From a virus: 32,594 bases of DNA. How positions within the stretch are numbered: the first letter of the stretch is position 1; every line of letters starts with the position of its first letter. Location of the stretch: positions 336,882-369,475 of IMG/VR virus record IMGVR_UViG_3300005529_000001; one strand, 5' to 3'. Both the position numbers and the translations under genes were made by a program. Below are positions 3,863-32,594 of the stretch, one piece after another. Below the pieces are notes generated by a model. That model had not been told where the DNA came from and ran no database searches. It saw only the letters and a list, made by a program, of their open reading frames with translations.

Positions 3863-4779
3863 AAGCCGTCGCCAAGCCCAAGGCAAAAGCCGTCAAGAAA
3901 GACAAATCCCAAAAAGCGTCTAAGCCCAAGATGCCCAAGGCAGCGAAGAAAGTCAGAGAACCCGAGATTGTTGAGCAGTCAGTGACCGCAAAGCTGCCCG
4001 TCGTTCCTGAGATCCAACCTACAGCCGAAGAACTGAAACAGAAAGAGCTGACCGCGGAAGAAAAAGCCGCGGCGGCCAAAGCTGCAAAGCAAGCCCGGAT
4101 GTACTTCAACCAGAACACTCAGGCATGCATTGTCGCTTACCAACAGGCAAAGGAAAACAAGAAAGAACGTGACAGGCTCTATGTCACGGGCATCATGCCC
4201 GCTTTCGAGAAGCTGGTTGAGAACCTAATCAACATCCACAAGTTCACCAGCCTTCATGACACGTATGACGACCTGAAAAATGACTGCGTCAACTTCTTGT
4301 TCGAGACGATCGGCAAGTTTGATTCCACACGTGGGACAAACGCTTTCTCGTATTTCAATGTCGTTGCAAAAAACTGGCTCATCATCCGCACCAAGCAGAA
4401 GAGCCAACGCATCCGTCGTAGCGTCAGCCTGGATGATCCTGAGGCTCTGTCAGTCAACGAACAACGCATCGTCGAAGACCACGCCACGATTCCGAGCCAG
4501 GACGTCCTTTTAGAAAAAGAATCAAGTGCCAAGGCGGTCGTGAACATGCTGTACGAGATCCGTAGCAAGGTCAAGACTGAAAACGAGCTTGCATGCATCA
4601 ACAGCATCATCACTATCTTTGAGAACATCGATGACATCGATCTCCTTAACAAGAGCGCGATCTTGCTCTACATGCGAGAGCTCAGTGGCCTGAGCCCGAA
4701 GCAACTCACGACGACAATGCAAAGCGTAAAGAAACATTACAGGCGAATGAAGATCGACCCGAAGTTTCGGTTGTTCTGA
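3859..4779 (+). CDS. Late-transcription sigma factor, T4 gp55-like
   Basis: A 306-residue protein with a sigma-70 region-2-like core. The clearest segment is a conserved stretch of the T4 gp55 type, FDSTRGTNAFSYFNVVAKNW, at about residues 153-173, followed by a basic helix (RTKQKSQRIRRS) suited to promoter DNA. In T4 this protein directs host RNA polymerase to late promoters together with the clamp and a co-activator. T4 gp55 is about 185 residues. This one is much longer because of an N-terminal extension of about 75 residues that is rich in Lys, Ala and Pro and probably disordered. It overlaps the previous stop (ATGA). No gp33-like co-activator is recognisable nearby. Its stop overlaps the next small ORF as TGATG. 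Confidence 0.75.
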   Translation: MKAVAKPKAKAVKKDKSQKASKPKMPKAAKKVREPEIVEQSVTAKLPVVPEIQPTAEELKQKELTAEEKAAAAKAAKQARMYFNQNTQACIVAYQQAKENKKERDRLYVTGIMPAFEKLVENLINIHKFTSLHDTYDDLKNDCVNFLFETIGKFDSTRGTNAFSYFNVVAKNWLIIRTKQKSQRIRRSVSLDDPEALSVNEQRIVEDHATIPSQDVLLEKESSAKAVVNMLYEIRSKVKTENELACINSIITIFENIDDIDLLNKSAILLYMRELSGLSPKQLTTTMQSVKKHYRRMKIDPKFRLF

Positions 4780-28297: not shown

Positions 28298-29641
28298 TTA
28301 CAGGGTCAGCTTCGCAAGAATGTTGTCGAGCGACGAGTCAGACAGCTTGTTGTTCTTGCACGCGGACGTGAACCACTCTCGAGCGTTCTTAGCCCGGTTC
28401 TCCCACAGGTTGAAGTAGACCGCGGTCCAGTCGCCGGACTCTTTCACCTGTTCAGCGTAATGCTTGCGTGAACCGTTAGCTTCTTGCCTGAATGTAGCGA
28501 CATTGGCATCGATGTGCTGGCAGTACTCGCCGAAGGCTCGCTGCATGTTCAGCAACCTGTCCTGGACGTCCTTGGGAACCAGAGGGATGATGTCATCAGC
28601 CTTCTCGAGGATGACAGCCTCTAGAGCGTTGCGAACTGACGACGTCACTGTGTCTTTCGACTTGTGAGCCAGCACGTAGGTCTTATTCTTGACTTTCAAC
28701 CTCTGGAAGGAGGCACCCGTCTGGACACAGACGACAGCACCCTCGAGCTCTGCTGGGTTGGCCGAGTCGACGAAACATGACAACGAGGCTATGTCACGGA
28801 TCTCCCACGTCTTCGGCCGCCGCACGTGTTCGATCCTGAGGCTCTCAATCGGGACCTCACGACCCGTCTGGGTGTGACGAGCGGCCAACAGGTAGACTCG
28901 CGGCTCTGGATAGACAACGACGATCTGGTTGTGAGGCGAGACAAGCTCGAAGACGTACGTCATCTCCTTGTTGAGGTGGATGACCTTATCAGGCCCGTCG
29001 ACGACCCAGTCGTGCGGGTACTTGTCGTCTTTTGGGCACAGCAAGTCGGGGTGTGCACACTCCTCACGCATTACGCTGCACTTCGAGCAATGAGCCCATC
29101 CGATGGGACCTGATAGCTCTTCCCGCGTCCTCACAAGCGCTTTGAGGAAAAGCTGTGAGAACGTCATCTCACCGATTTCGAGGTTACCCGCGTTGATGGG
29201 CAAGTCAGCCTCGGGTACAGACCGTGTGCCCGCGTGCCACTTCCCGTGAAGCGGGTCCCAGTAACAGATGATGCAGGTGCCATCGACTTTTTCATAGACC
29301 CTCAACGAGGGATGTGACCAGTCGATGTTCACAGCGCTGGGATCGCCGAAGTTGTAGAAACGGCACATGGGCCACGCCAGCACTTCGATCTCGCCAACCC
29401 TGATGTCTTTCCAATCACGGTTGGTGAATGATTCCATCATGCTGAACCAATCAAGTTCGACGGGCCGGATGACGAGGCCACGGCACTGCTCGGAGACGGG
29501 GTCGCCATTCTTGGCTAGGATCTGATCATAGTTGAGCGCGAACTTGTCACCCGTTGCGTTGGGCCTTGCACAGACACCGTGCTCCTCTTCGAGCTGACGA
29601 AAGGTGTGGTTGCGAAGGTAGTCCCTGACAAGGAGATCCAT
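28298..29641 (-). CDS. RNA ligase, T4 Rnl1-like, with Cys4 insertion
   Basis: A 447-residue nucleotidyltransferase of the Rnl1 type. The pattern is QCRGLVIRP (residues 52-60), motif I KVDG with nucleophile Lys118 (VYEKVDGTCIICYW), motif III FELVSPHN at 231-238, motif IV LEGAVV with Glu300, and motif V RLKVKNKTY with Lys316 and Lys318. Such enzymes seal broken RNA, in T4 the tRNAs cut by the host PrrC anticodon nuclease. Between motifs I and III is an insertion with four cysteines, C185-x2-C188-x6-C195-x6-C202, probably a zinc knuckle. It is divergent from the HAD phosphatase gene across 62 bases. Confidence 0.88.
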   Translation of the reverse strand: MDLLVRDYLRNHTFRQLEEEHGVCARPNATGDKFALNYDQILAKNGDPVSEQCRGLVIRPVELDWFSMMESFTNRDWKDIRVGEIEVLAWPMCRFYNFGDPSAVNIDWSHPSLRVYEKVDGTCIICYWDPLHGKWHAGTRSVPEADLPINAGNLEIGEMTFSQLFLKALVRTREELSGPIGWAHCSKCSVMREECAHPDLLCPKDDKYPHDWVVDGPDKVIHLNKEMTYVFELVSPHNQIVVVYPEPRVYLLAARHTQTGREVPIESLRIEHVRRPKTWEIRDIASLSCFVDSANPAELEGAVVCVQTGASFQRLKVKNKTYVLAHKSKDTVTSSVRNALEAVILEKADDIIPLVPKDVQDRLLNMQRAFGEYCQHIDANVATFRQEANGSRKHYAEQVKESGDWTAVYFNLWENRAKNAREWFTSACKNNKLSDSSLDNILAKLTL

Positions 29642-29703
29642 GTCCCAACCCTACCTCACATGCCGGCCAAGATACACTGTGCACACATTGGGTACGATTG
29701 ATC
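29642..29703. promoter_or_regulatory. Divergent intergenic region, RNA ligase / HAD phosphatase
   Basis: The 62 bases between the two divergent starts must hold promoters for both genes if they are not read through. On the minus strand a GAGG-type site precedes ATG 29641. On the plus strand no good ribosome-binding site is seen before ATG 29704. I cannot pick convincing -10/-35 boxes. Confidence 0.3.
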
Positions 29704-30288
29704 ATGGGTTCATCGACGAAGCTCCTGAAGGAGTACATCAGGACCGTCAAGACAACCAAGCCACGTCGTAAGCGATGGGTCTTTGATTTTGACTACACCT
29801 TAGTCAGGACGGATGCATGCACTCACGTTACCAACTCCGTGGGAAAGAAATTTGACCTTGACCCACACGAGTTCGCGATCTACGAGAGGCAGCCTGGCGA
29901 TGTCTTTGACTACACCGATTTCGAAAAACTGATCAACCCACGGCCCATCAAGTGGATGAATCGCATCCTCCACAACGTGTGCGAGCACCACGGCCATGAG
30001 GCAGCGCTAGTGTTGTCAGCCCGGTCGTACAGCGATCCCATCCGCCAGTATCTGGTTGGTGTTGGCCTGGCTGATGTTGAGGTTGCAACGCTCAACACTC
30101 CAGCACCCGAAGCCAAAGCTGCTTACGTCAGCGAGCTCATTGAGACAGAAGACCTAGAAGAGGTCGAGTTTTTCGATGACAGTCACAAAAACGTCGCTGC
30201 TGTTGCTGCTTTGCGAGCAAAGCACCCGAACGTTGCCATCTTCTCGAGACACGTCATCCACAACCGGATCAACCGGTGTTTGTCCTGA
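29704..30288 (+). CDS. HAD-superfamily phosphatase, phage type
   Basis: A 194-residue protein (ATG 29704; a TTG at 29698 is also in frame) with all four HAD motifs: motif I WVFDFDYTL, with Asp28 as nucleophile and Asp30 as acid/base; motif II LSARS with Ser105; motif III Lys138; and motif IV EFFDDS with Asp158 and Asp159. The cap-side pattern FDLDPHEFAIYERQPGD then FDYTDFEKL matches a HAD subfamily that is common in large phages. Likely substrates are nucleotides or nucleic-acid 3'- or 5'-phosphates. Being back to back with an RNA ligase, it may supply the end-healing 3'-phosphatase step, as the phosphatase half of T4 Pnkp does. No kinase domain is present. The stop abuts the convergent next gene as TGATCA. 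Confidence 0.82.
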   Translation: MGSSTKLLKEYIRTVKTTKPRRKRWVFDFDYTLVRTDACTHVTNSVGKKFDLDPHEFAIYERQPGDVFDYTDFEKLINPRPIKWMNRILHNVCEHHGHEAALVLSARSYSDPIRQYLVGVGLADVEVATLNTPAPEAKAAYVSELIETEDLEEVEFFDDSHKNVAAVAALRAKHPNVAIFSRHVIHNRINRCLS

Positions 30289-30750
30289 TCAATCGTCAGT
30301 GACGATCGGGATCTCATCATTGAAGAGAGAAGCCAGGTCCAGGCGTGAGTCACCGTCTTCGACGAGCACCACGTCGATGTGCGGGTCATTGTAACGCTTC
30401 ATCGGCAGCATGTTTCCCATCACCCACCCAGCATGGGTGCTGACCTCGGTGCCCGATGCGTTCTGTGGTTCATGCGCCTTGGCCAACCTAACCAAGTCCA
30501 GTCGCTTGCCCTTCACCGAAGTCGGGATCTTACCCGGCTCGACAGCGTCATCATAAGCGTAATCGAAGCCCCTCAGCTCGGCTTCAATGAAGCCTCCGGG
30601 CTCCAACACGAGCTCATGGATTCCGTCAACTTGAACCTGTTCGTTCCGTTCGAGAGCACACGCCCAAACATAGAGCGCTTCGGAACTGGGGAAGAGGTGA
30701 AACTTCCGTCCTGGAGAATTGGGTTTGAGAGTGATTCTGACCTTTTTCAT
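30289..30750 (-). CDS. Unrecognised 153-residue protein
   Basis: A soluble protein with a basic beta-like N-terminus (MKKVRITLKPNSPGRKFHLF), an acidic middle (LVLEPGGFIEAELRGFDYAY) and an acidic C-terminus (LASLFNDEIPIVTDD). No catalytic motif, signal peptide or membrane segment is seen. It starts directly after the stop of the zinc-ribbon-like gene upstream (TGA then ATG with no gap), so it belongs to the same transcript as the tRNA and RNA ligase genes. Function unknown. Confidence 0.65.
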   Translation of the reverse strand: MKKVRITLKPNSPGRKFHLFPSSEALYVWACALERNEQVQVDGIHELVLEPGGFIEAELRGFDYAYDDAVEPGKIPTSVKGKRLDLVRLAKAHEPQNASGTEVSTHAGWVMGNMLPMKRYNDPHIDVVLVEDGDSRLDLASLFNDEIPIVTDD

Positions 30751-31152
30751 TCACTGCCACTCCATTGAGCCACGTTCTGGTACGTCAGATTCGTTTTGAT
30801 AGCTCGACATCGTAACTAGGTCTTGGGCACGCCTGATCCCAAGGGCGTTGGGCAAATCGATCCAAAGCTCCTCTTCTGCCACGGATTTTCGCAACAGGTT
30901 CAGGTTTACGTTGGTGTCAACGCCAGCGTTCTTTCGCGACTTGGTGATCAACCTTGCCGCGCAGTGATCGCAACAGTGAATTCCCAACGTCTGGTGACGG
31001 ACCGTAGCGGCTTGCTTGCAACCGTTGCACGCGCACCTCTCAAGCGTCTGGAGCATCAGCGCGGCGTGCTCAGCAAAGCCCTGTGACAACACGCCAATCA
31101 TGTTGTCATTCTTGAGTGTCAGCTTCGTCAGGAGGTCAAACAGCGACGCCAT
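30751..31152 (-). CDS. Small protein with a zinc-ribbon-like cysteine set
   Basis: A 133-residue protein. I chose ATG 31152 (MASLFDLLTK), because the longer reading to 31221 runs into tRNA-Ile. Residues about 39-63 hold CACNGC and then HCCDHC, a probable C-x2-C / C-x2-C zinc site of about 20 residues, preceded by a helical stretch (NMIGVLSQGFAEHAALMLQT). The C-terminal half is basic, then acidic, with no known motif. A zinc ribbon beside RNA-processing genes suggests nucleic-acid binding, but this is inference. It lies 39 bases downstream of tRNA-Ile and abuts the next gene. Confidence 0.65.
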   Translation of the reverse strand: MASLFDLLTKLTLKNDNMIGVLSQGFAEHAALMLQTLERCACNGCKQAATVRHQTLGIHCCDHCAARLITKSRKNAGVDTNVNLNLLRKSVAEEELWIDLPNALGIRRAQDLVTMSSYQNESDVPERGSMEWQ

Positions 31153-31191
31153 CCGATCACATAGTACCCCAATCGAAGGGCTTTTGCAAGG

Positions 31192-31271
31192 TCGGCCGCG
31201 CGGGAATCGAACCCATAGCACATACGCTTATAAGACGTACCCCTCCGACCAGGCGGGTTAGCTCGCGGCCG
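31192..31271 (-). tRNA. tRNA-Ile (anticodon UAU), atypical D-arm
   Basis: On the minus strand a perfect 7-bp acceptor CGGCCGC/GCGGCCG is followed by an anticodon stem TACGT/GCGTA with loop CTTATAA (anticodon TAT at 31232-31230, reading AUA) and a T-arm ATGGG-TTCGATT-CCCGC ending in discriminator A. No CCA is encoded. The D-arm region is too long and pairs only weakly (a CCC/GGG stem with a TGGT loop can be drawn, leaving extra bases after the acceptor), so the tRNA is unusual or slightly decayed. It begins 3 bases after the Rnl2-type ligase gene and was probably cut out of its transcript. A purely Met-converted (lysidine CAU) Ile tRNA is ruled out by the loop. Confidence 0.75.
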
Positions 31272-31274
31272 CTC

Positions 31275-31973
31275 TCACTTGAGCGCGTTCCGGAGCTCTA
31301 TGTTGTCGCCACAGTAAATGTCAAGCTTGTCCAGCCATGCCCGCGACTTCTGCTTGAACATGATGGGCATCTTGGTCTTCTTGTCGTTCTTCGCCTTGCA
31401 AACGACGCCCTCGAATGTCATGCCGGGCAACGTACCAGCCCTGACAGACTCGATGAACTCAGGAGTGACGTCACCTTCATACAGGACCTTGGCATGGTCC
31501 AGTCCTTCAGCAAGCTTCAGGAACCGCGCTGGCTCCAAGATGCCCTGGGCGAAGGGGGCGATATCAAACAAGGTGACCGTCAGCTCTTCCTGCAGGTTGT
31601 GCATCCCCGCAAAGGAGCTGGGTCCCCAGAGCTCGAAAAAGCACATGGCTCGGTCGATGTTAGCTTCTTGGAGACGTTGTGCTAACGTCTCGCCGTACTT
31701 AGCCTGCACCAGCCCCGGGGCCTGCCCGAAGATGGGATCGGTCTCATCGACCAGCCGGTTGCGAGTGCCAAACTTGTGCCAGCCCTTCTTGCTGGTCCAC
31801 TCGGCACGGATGTTGCTGCCGTCGAGCTTGTCGAAGGCAACGATGGGAAGGTGAGATTCAGTTGCATATACGATGCTAGGATATGTTTTCACGATAGACT
31901 CCGGATCTCTTCGTTCATCAAGATCATAGTTCAGGCGCTTATCACGCCGGCGGTAGTGTTCTCGTTCAGACAT
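31275..31973 (-). CDS. RNA ligase, Rnl2-like
   Basis: A 232-residue nucleotidyltransferase. Motif I is FDKLDGSN with nucleophile Lys49, motif Ia-like residues follow at FGTRNRL, motif III is FFELWG (112-117), motif IV FEGVVCK (187-193) and motif V MFKQKS (205-210). This fits the adenylyltransferase domain of the T4 Rnl2 / RNA-ligase family. It is shorter than T4 Rnl2 (334), with no obvious C-terminal domain, so it is a minimal core ligase. It is a second, different class from the Rnl1-like enzyme nearby. It starts directly after the DUF4326 stop and ends 3 bases before tRNA-Ile, which favours a tRNA-repair or RNA-sealing role. Confidence 0.85.
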   Translation of the reverse strand: MSEREHYRRRDKRLNYDLDERRDPESIVKTYPSIVYATESHLPIVAFDKLDGSNIRAEWTSKKGWHKFGTRNRLVDETDPIFGQAPGLVQAKYGETLAQRLQEANIDRAMCFFELWGPSSFAGMHNLQEELTVTLFDIAPFAQGILEPARFLKLAEGLDHAKVLYEGDVTPEFIESVRAGTLPGMTFEGVVCKAKNDKKTKMPIMFKQKSRAWLDKLDIYCGDNIELRNALK

Positions 31974-32252
31974 TCATGGCTCGTTCGCAATTCGTGCTAG
32001 GACGTCACCGTGACACGCTTTCGGCGCACACCAACATCCCAACACTTTTCCTTTCAGTTCTCGTTTCGCTCTCTCGATGATCTCTGGATGCTGTCTCAGG
32101 TACTCTTCATAACAAGCGATCGCTTCTTCTCGAGTATCTACCTTGACTTCTGCCAAGCTCTTGGGCTTGTCAGAGAATGGGTTCCCCCACTCTGAGGGCC
32201 GTCCGATGTAAACGTCGTACGGTTCCTTCTTGCAATGGACGACAAACTTCAT
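31974..32252 (-). CDS. DUF4326 protein
   Basis: A 92-residue protein with the whole DUF4326 signature: an N-terminal VVHCKKEPYDVYIGRPSEWG, NPF, then the C-terminal LGCWCAPKACHGDVLA with Cys73, Cys75, Cys80 and His81. The conserved Cys/His group suggests a metal or active-site cluster. The biochemical role of the family is not known to me. It sits 3 bases downstream of tRNA-Leu and abuts the Rnl2-type ligase, so it probably shares their transcript. Confidence 0.85.
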   Translation of the reverse strand: MKFVVHCKKEPYDVYIGRPSEWGNPFSDKPKSLAEVKVDTREEAIACYEEYLRQHPEIIERAKRELKGKVLGCWCAPKACHGDVLARIANEP

Positions 32253-32255
32253 CCG

Positions 32256-32339
32256 TACTCACGGTGGGATTCGAACCCACACTCCCTTGCGGGAACCGGG
32301 GTTTGAGCCCGGCGCGTCTGCCAATTCCGCCACGTGAGC
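32256..32339 (-). tRNA. tRNA-Leu (anticodon CAA)
   Basis: Minus strand, 84 bases, a regular type-II cloverleaf: acceptor GCTCACG/CGTGAGT (one G-U), a D-arm with the usual TTGGCAGACGC, anticodon stem CCGGG/CCCGG with loop CTCAAAC (anticodon CAA at 32305-32303, reading UUG), a long variable arm with a CCC/GGG stem, and T-arm GTGGG-TTCGAAT-CCCAC. The discriminator is A and no CCA is encoded. It is 15 bases after the upstream small gene and 3 bases before DUF4326, so it must be processed out of a polycistronic transcript or have its own promoter. Confidence 0.92.
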
Positions 32340-32354
32340 GTGATCTCTGCGTTC

Positions 32355-32543
32355 CTAAGTCTTATGTAGTTTTGGAACAACACGGTCCCAATCGTAATAG
32401 ATCACATCAACCCGAGTAAGCCTACCGTCGTCGCCCACCGCGAAAGCTTGGTTTCCCTGTCGGAGCTCGACTTCGCGATTCATCGCGTTCACTTGTTCCT
32501 GTGTCACCTTCCGGCGAGCATGCTTGATCTTCTTGTCTTTCAC
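32355..32543 (-). CDS. Small basic protein, 62 residues
   Basis: It reads from GTG 32543 to TAG 32355. The N-terminus is strongly basic (KDKKIKHARRKVTQEQVNAM) and the C-terminus ends in a beta-like GDDGRLTRVDVIYYDWDRVV. The open frame extends 12 codons further upstream with no ATG, GTG or TTG, so GTG is the only normal start. I do not recognise the family. It lies immediately upstream of tRNA-Leu on the same strand. Confidence 0.5.
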   Translation of the reverse strand: MKDKKIKHARRKVTQEQVNAMNREVELRQGNQAFAVGDDGRLTRVDVIYYDWDRVVPKLHKT

Positions 32544-32594
32544 TTCAATCTCTCGCTCGCTTTGATCGCCTGTTCGTGACTACTCCCGATCATC

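Follow-up and report, generated by a model that had tools for sequence, protein, structure and literature searches.

A conserved PTH2-tRNA-p30289-HAD gene order at the tail-proximal end of a probable translation-maintenance island in an uncultured jumbo phage

The window analyzed here is a 32,594-nucleotide stretch of IMG/VR virus record IMGVR_UViG_3300005529_000001 (positions 336882–369475; record length 369,475 bases) that carries near its right end, at 28298–32543, a compact block encoding two RNA ligases, a standalone HAD phosphatase-fold protein, two tRNAs, a DUF4326 protein and three small proteins designated p30289, p30751 and p32355 (Table 1; block coordinates follow window numbering, kb positions of distant genes record numbering). 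The block probably forms the tail-proximal side of a ~45-kb translation-maintenance island in an uncultured jumbo phage, where phage-supplied tRNAs, the repair of RNA ends and the rescue of ribosomes together would blunt host defenses that cleave tRNA. The gene content and order, the motifs, the tRNA structure and its covariation, the promoter-like motifs and the closed genome are direct observations. Since the terminal 110 bp of the record equal its initial 110 bp, the genome closes on itself and the right end of the window joins record position 1. Minus-strand tRNAs occupy record 0.7–39 kb, the genome total being ~58 with the pair in the window and another two just left of it included, and in relatives the same tRNA order leads directly into the block. 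The island also encodes PTH2 (record 4197–4727), NADAR, a YAcAr SLOG protein and a PCRF/RF-1 release-factor-like (GGQ) protein. Gene and tRNA searches recovered every item listed in an earlier sequence-only reading of the block, and the intergenic gaps of 0–40 nt that it gave are correct; the two tRNAs, which it took for special replacements, are the end of the ~58-tRNA array.

Conserved linkage had been set beforehand as the check on that reading, and homology searches in viral contigs bear it out, with the order recurring in 20 other distinct contigs encoding p30289 (21 counting this genome). The shared order is NADAR – PTH2 – (tRNA-Leu) – (AUA-reading tRNA) – (p30751) – p30289 – <HAD – (Rnl1) – convergent tail genes, where parentheses mark optional members and HAD faces p30289, and it is kept at p30289 identities as low as ~23–34%. 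In 19 of the 21 contigs PTH2 lies upstream and shares the strand, the other two ending too early, and the remaining members are less constant (HAD in 15, p30751 in 11, Rnl1 and the minimal ligase in 10 each). Both p30289 and HAD are found without either ligase nearby, and L081 has Rnl1 but lacks the minimal ligase. Rnl1, the minimal ligase and DUF4326 are optional additions within one sublineage. In L173–L176, NADAR, PTH2 and p30289 stand side by side, uninterrupted by tRNAs or ligases; p30289 therefore follows PTH2/NADAR, and it most likely serves the PTH2/tRNA part of the island, not the ligases.

Judged by their alignments, p30289 and p30751 are two new, conserved protein families. For p30289, no PDB or viral fold match was obtained (Foldseek, nothing below E = 0.07), tblastn of 50,697 phage records gave no match, and none of 85 pattern matches in bacterial genomes was a family member. 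The true start of p30751 is placed at ATG 31152 because the alignment with its relatives begins at residue 24 and GTG 31221, the alternative, falls inside a tRNA. Foldseek returned nothing below E = 0.37 for this protein, and a candidate assignment as Spt4-like was rejected, the match being weak (0.016) and carried mainly by the zinc-ribbon part. Of the unrecognized proteins put forward earlier as candidate parts of a counter-defense, p30289 and p30751 do form genuine conserved families; the context of both points to PTH2 and tRNA rather than to the ligases.

The AUA-reading tRNA-Ile(UAU) is structurally unusual: it is not called by ARAGORN, it scores below the Rfam tRNA cut-off, and its best Rfam match is tRNA-Sec. 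In this genome it has a five-nucleotide D-loop (UGGUC), an extra seven-base linker (GAGCUAA) after the acceptor stem and a G before position 1. Across 12 aligned relatives the D-arm forms a six-pair stem with a five-base loop, mostly YGGUY; all six D-stem pairs (6/6) show compensatory change, and over the whole tRNA structure 93% of cells pair, compared with 32–52% when partners are slid. A single-sequence D-stem counter being too lax, a canonical-core test was used in its place (U8, A14, a D-stem of 3–4 bp and a D-loop of at least 7), by which the canonical core is present in 0/12 members of the UAU family and in 42/56 other tRNAs of the genome. In L083, L084 and L086 the UAU slot instead holds a tRNA(CAU) beside TilS, with TIGR02432 above cut-off in both tested; a search for TilS in this genome found none, the control being positive in all 14 genomes. 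The 'tRNA-Stop(UUA)' of L035 probably reflects poor parsing of a tRNA that occupies the UAU slot. At L040 1082–1155, a tRNA called as Val(UAC) reaches 47 bits against the UAU-family model, the usual slot of L040 being without a UAU tRNA, and its D-arm may be of the same unusual kind. Extended D-arms resembling that of the family turned up in further viral contigs in a pattern scan, whereas none of five matching bacterial contigs had at least five D pairs, a contrast that is biased because the scan pattern was derived from the UAU family.

Bacterial tRNA-Sec likewise has a 6-bp D-stem and a very short D-loop; unlike it, the phage tRNA has a UAU anticodon, a short variable region and a mostly 7-bp acceptor stem. 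A review (PMC7609411) describes an abundant, unexplained group of allo-tRNA(UAU) in soil and sediment, as well as irregular tRNAs that carry G-1 and an additional acceptor-to-D loop. By description, these resemble the phage tRNA in the UAU anticodon, G-1, the unusual linker between acceptor and D-arm, and possible 8/4 helices, and we treat their identity with tRNA-Ile(UAU) as a lead. A wider proposal, which we hold tentatively and think somewhat doubtful, is that jumbo phages keep an AUA-decoding slot filled either by tRNA-Ile(UAU) with a Sec-like D-arm or by tRNA-Ile(CAU) with TilS; that the orphan allo-tRNA(UAU) of soil and sediment are these phage tRNAs, working without host lysidine modification and escaping enzymes that read the canonical core; and that the p30289 family belongs to the same decoding and rescue unit.

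The transcription signals suggest leaderless messages with separate promoters. Within the 62-bp region between the divergent Rnl1 and HAD genes, -10-like boxes (TACGAT for HAD, TAGGGT for Rnl1) lie 5–6 nt ahead of each start codon, and a TAnnnT box occurs 4–8 nt ahead of the start codon at 18/20 HAD, Rnl1 and p30751 starts compared with 3.2% of random positions, although these are not 20 independent tests because the sequences are related. A generic sigma-70 scan was uninformative. A single polycistronic operon is contradicted by the divergent strands of HAD and Rnl1 and by the conserved promoter-like boxes. The view of the block as one ligase-centered unit is not supported, as several promoters are predicted, p30289 and HAD occur without ligases and follow PTH2/NADAR and the AUA tRNA, and the complete repair set lies ~125 kb away. 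The element GGTACNAT was also seen ~13–16 nt ahead of start codons, at 29691 and 31168 in the window and at L062 14404 (minus strand), before the metallophosphoesterase of the 208-kb repair operon; the repair genes may therefore share a promoter type.

This operon (record 208–214 kb, ~125 kb before the window) encodes an RNA_ligase (Rnl2) protein, PNKP (kinase and HAD_PNKP), RlaP and the metallophosphoesterase, and it is the complete healing and sealing set of the genome, located outside the block. With an additional RNA ligase at record 22 kb, the genome encodes four ATP-dependent RNA ligases; RtcB was looked for in the genome and not found. The ligase motifs of the block were correctly described as complete, the catalytic residues being invariant in both alignments. 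In the Rnl1-like ligase these are nucleotidyltransferase motifs I (K118-V-D-G), IIIa, IV and V (10 sequences), and the protein scores 66.8 bits against TIGR02308, for which the curated cut-off is 242. A Cys/His-rich insertion of ~28 aa at residues ~206–235 (AHCSKCSVMREECAH...C) occurs in this phage only, being absent from 9/9 relatives, and is possibly a zinc-binding addition. In the minimal ligase, K49, D51, G52, E188, G189, K207 and K209 are invariant, but the protein ends shortly past motif V without the Rnl2 C-terminal domain and has no match to TIGR02307; by these features the label Rnl2-type, as given earlier, fits the catalytic domain alone. In 6 contigs, this one included, the gene immediately preceding the minimal ligase is DUF4326.

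The start of the HAD gene was set at ATG 29704, replacing TTG 29698, and tblastn of the same 50,697 phage records gave no match to its product. In sequence the protein looks nearest to the 'Swiss-army-knife' RNA-repair HADs, with an hhalign probability of 85% to the HAD_SAK_1 protein of L081, though it has no Pfam HAD_SAK match. Many other uncultured viruses hold HAD relatives without p30289; no relatives of these two ligases lie nearby, and tRNAs are absent with few exceptions.

We infer the activities, substrates and anti-defense purpose of these genes as follows. The ~58 phage tRNAs, a nearly complete set including the oddly shaped AUA reader, would replace broken tRNAs, and the Rnl1-like and minimal ligases would reseal 3′-OH/5′-phosphate ends once healed by the distant PNKP, possibly with the HAD protein. 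Peptidyl-tRNA that has stalled would be freed by PTH2 and the release-factor-like GGQ protein, and the removal of ADP-ribose phosphates would fall to NADAR and DUF4326; phage translation would as a result withstand the host tRNA-cleaving defenses. Counter-defense or repair roles have been proposed for the tRNAs, several RNA ligases, PTH2, NADAR and DUF4326 of jumbo phages (PMC7824862), as has action of NADAR and DUF4326 on ADP-ribose products (PMC7824862, PMC9503650). Experimentally, retron-Eco7 and PrrC are overcome by phage tRNA-Tyr and tRNA-Lys (PMC11555353), although the layered counter-defense proposed earlier for this phage is still an inference.

Several observations weigh against this interpretation: an assignment of the HAD protein as a PNKP phosphatase is not supported (no PF25109 match, and an hhalign probability of 0.2% against the PNKP of this genome), the locus has no ligases in about half of the contigs, and the conserved order may partly reflect descent because the neighboring tail genes are conserved too. 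Plain translation support is a rather unlikely alternative, in which the phage's own tRNAs and decoding and rescue factors meet codon demand and translate after host shut-off, the ligases are RNA housekeeping and no defense is countered. The near-complete tRNA set, the filling of the AUA-decoder slot by either the UAU tRNA or a CAU tRNA with TilS, and the AUA usage of the window (3.3 per 1000 codons) all fit it, but codon supply would not need four ATP-dependent RNA ligases, PNKP and RlaP.

It is unlikely that the block is a neighborhood by descent, with unrelated early genes held together at the tail-module border without joint function; NADAR, PTH2 and p30289 persist together where tRNAs and ligases are gone (L173–L176), and the members have an RNA and translation theme in common, even though the adjoining tail proteins are conserved as well, promoters are separate and members come and go. 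Very improbable is a main role of the Rnl1-like protein in tail-fiber attachment, like T4 gp63, with its position set by the adjacent tail-fiber genes. The gene does adjoin tail and fiber genes in most relatives and its PHROG is named 'RNA ligase and tail fiber protein attachment catalyst', yet every catalytic motif is invariant, and its divergent promoter is common to HAD and not to the tail genes, which lie convergently on the opposite strand. Maintenance of translation against tRNA cleavage is our preferred interpretation.

Table 1. Features of the block and of the window's right end (window numbering).
Feature	Position	Strand	Evidence or remark
Rnl1-like RNA ligase, T4 type, 447 aa	28298–29641	-	phrog_562 5.5e-41; PDB 2c5u (T4 Rnl1) 2.8e-13
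Divergent promoter region, 62 bp	29642–29703	.	GATACACT/AGTGTATC element; conserved in 7 divergent pairs
Standalone HAD phosphatase-fold protein	29704–30288	+	motifs FDFDYTL, LSAR, K, FFDDS (alignment); weak phrog_415
p30289, beta-rich protein	30289–30750	-	convergent with HAD; family in 20 other contigs
p30751, Cys4 protein, zinc-binding-like	30751–31152	-	-10-like box TACTAT of its own
tRNA-Ile(UAU), non-canonical	31191–31271	-	covariation in 12 relatives
Minimal RNA ligase, 232 aa, K49-LDG	31275–31973	-	RNA_ligase family PF09414 7.1e-8, above cut-off
DUF4326 protein	31974–32252	-	PF14216 1.4e-25, 90 bits (cut-off 25)
tRNA-Leu(CAA)	32255–32339	-	ARAGORN, 58 bits
p32355, small basic protein	32355–32543	-	conserved in L033, L043, L160, L170
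110-bp terminal repeat	32485–32594	.	exact copy of the record's first 110 bp

The start of p32355 overlaps the stop of the HNH gene at the record's start. Outside the main array, tandem plus-strand tRNAs were found just left of the window (L063 6640–6713 and 6719–6793, record 336639–336791), with an 8-nt anticodon loop AUUUCAAC (ARAGORN 'ttca'); these are possible frameshift or UGA-reading tRNAs. A tRNA with a CUA anticodon, labeled Pyl by ARAGORN, lies at L061 16781–16856 (minus strand), and a small protein encoded in the tRNA island (L060 9567–10073, minus strand) has a weak match to the Rit1 DUSP-like domain (initiator tRNA phosphoribosyl transferase).

The island is of a type already known from jumbo phages, as XacN1, RsoM2USA and BcepSaruman/BcepSauron likewise encode dozens of tRNAs, several RNA ligases, PTH2, NADAR and DUF4326 (PMC7824862, PMC8504454). 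Phage TilS is known too, since RsoM2USA encodes it together with a CUA suppressor tRNA (PMC8504454), the latter reported as amber-suppressor-like and comparable to the CUA tRNA of L061. XacN1 has a minimal-ligase relative (44.9%), but nothing annotated around that gene corresponds to the block. As in the T4 Pnkp/Rnl1 repair of tRNA cleaved by PrrC, an Rnl1-like ligase and PNKP are encoded in the genome; unlike in T4, PNKP is paired with another, distant ligase, and Rnl1 has a standalone HAD and a minimal ligase as neighbors. New are the PTH2-AUA tRNA-p30289-HAD architecture, which offers a conserved, testable gene order for the protection and rescue of translation in giant phages, the p30289 and p30751 families, the pairing of the minimal ligase with DUF4326, and the family of non-canonical tRNA-Ile(UAU) together with the TilS alternative to it; this family gives a genomic home to a structurally odd tRNA(UAU) class resembling the soil 'allo-tRNAs' of unknown origin and may explain the soil 'orphan' tRNAs.

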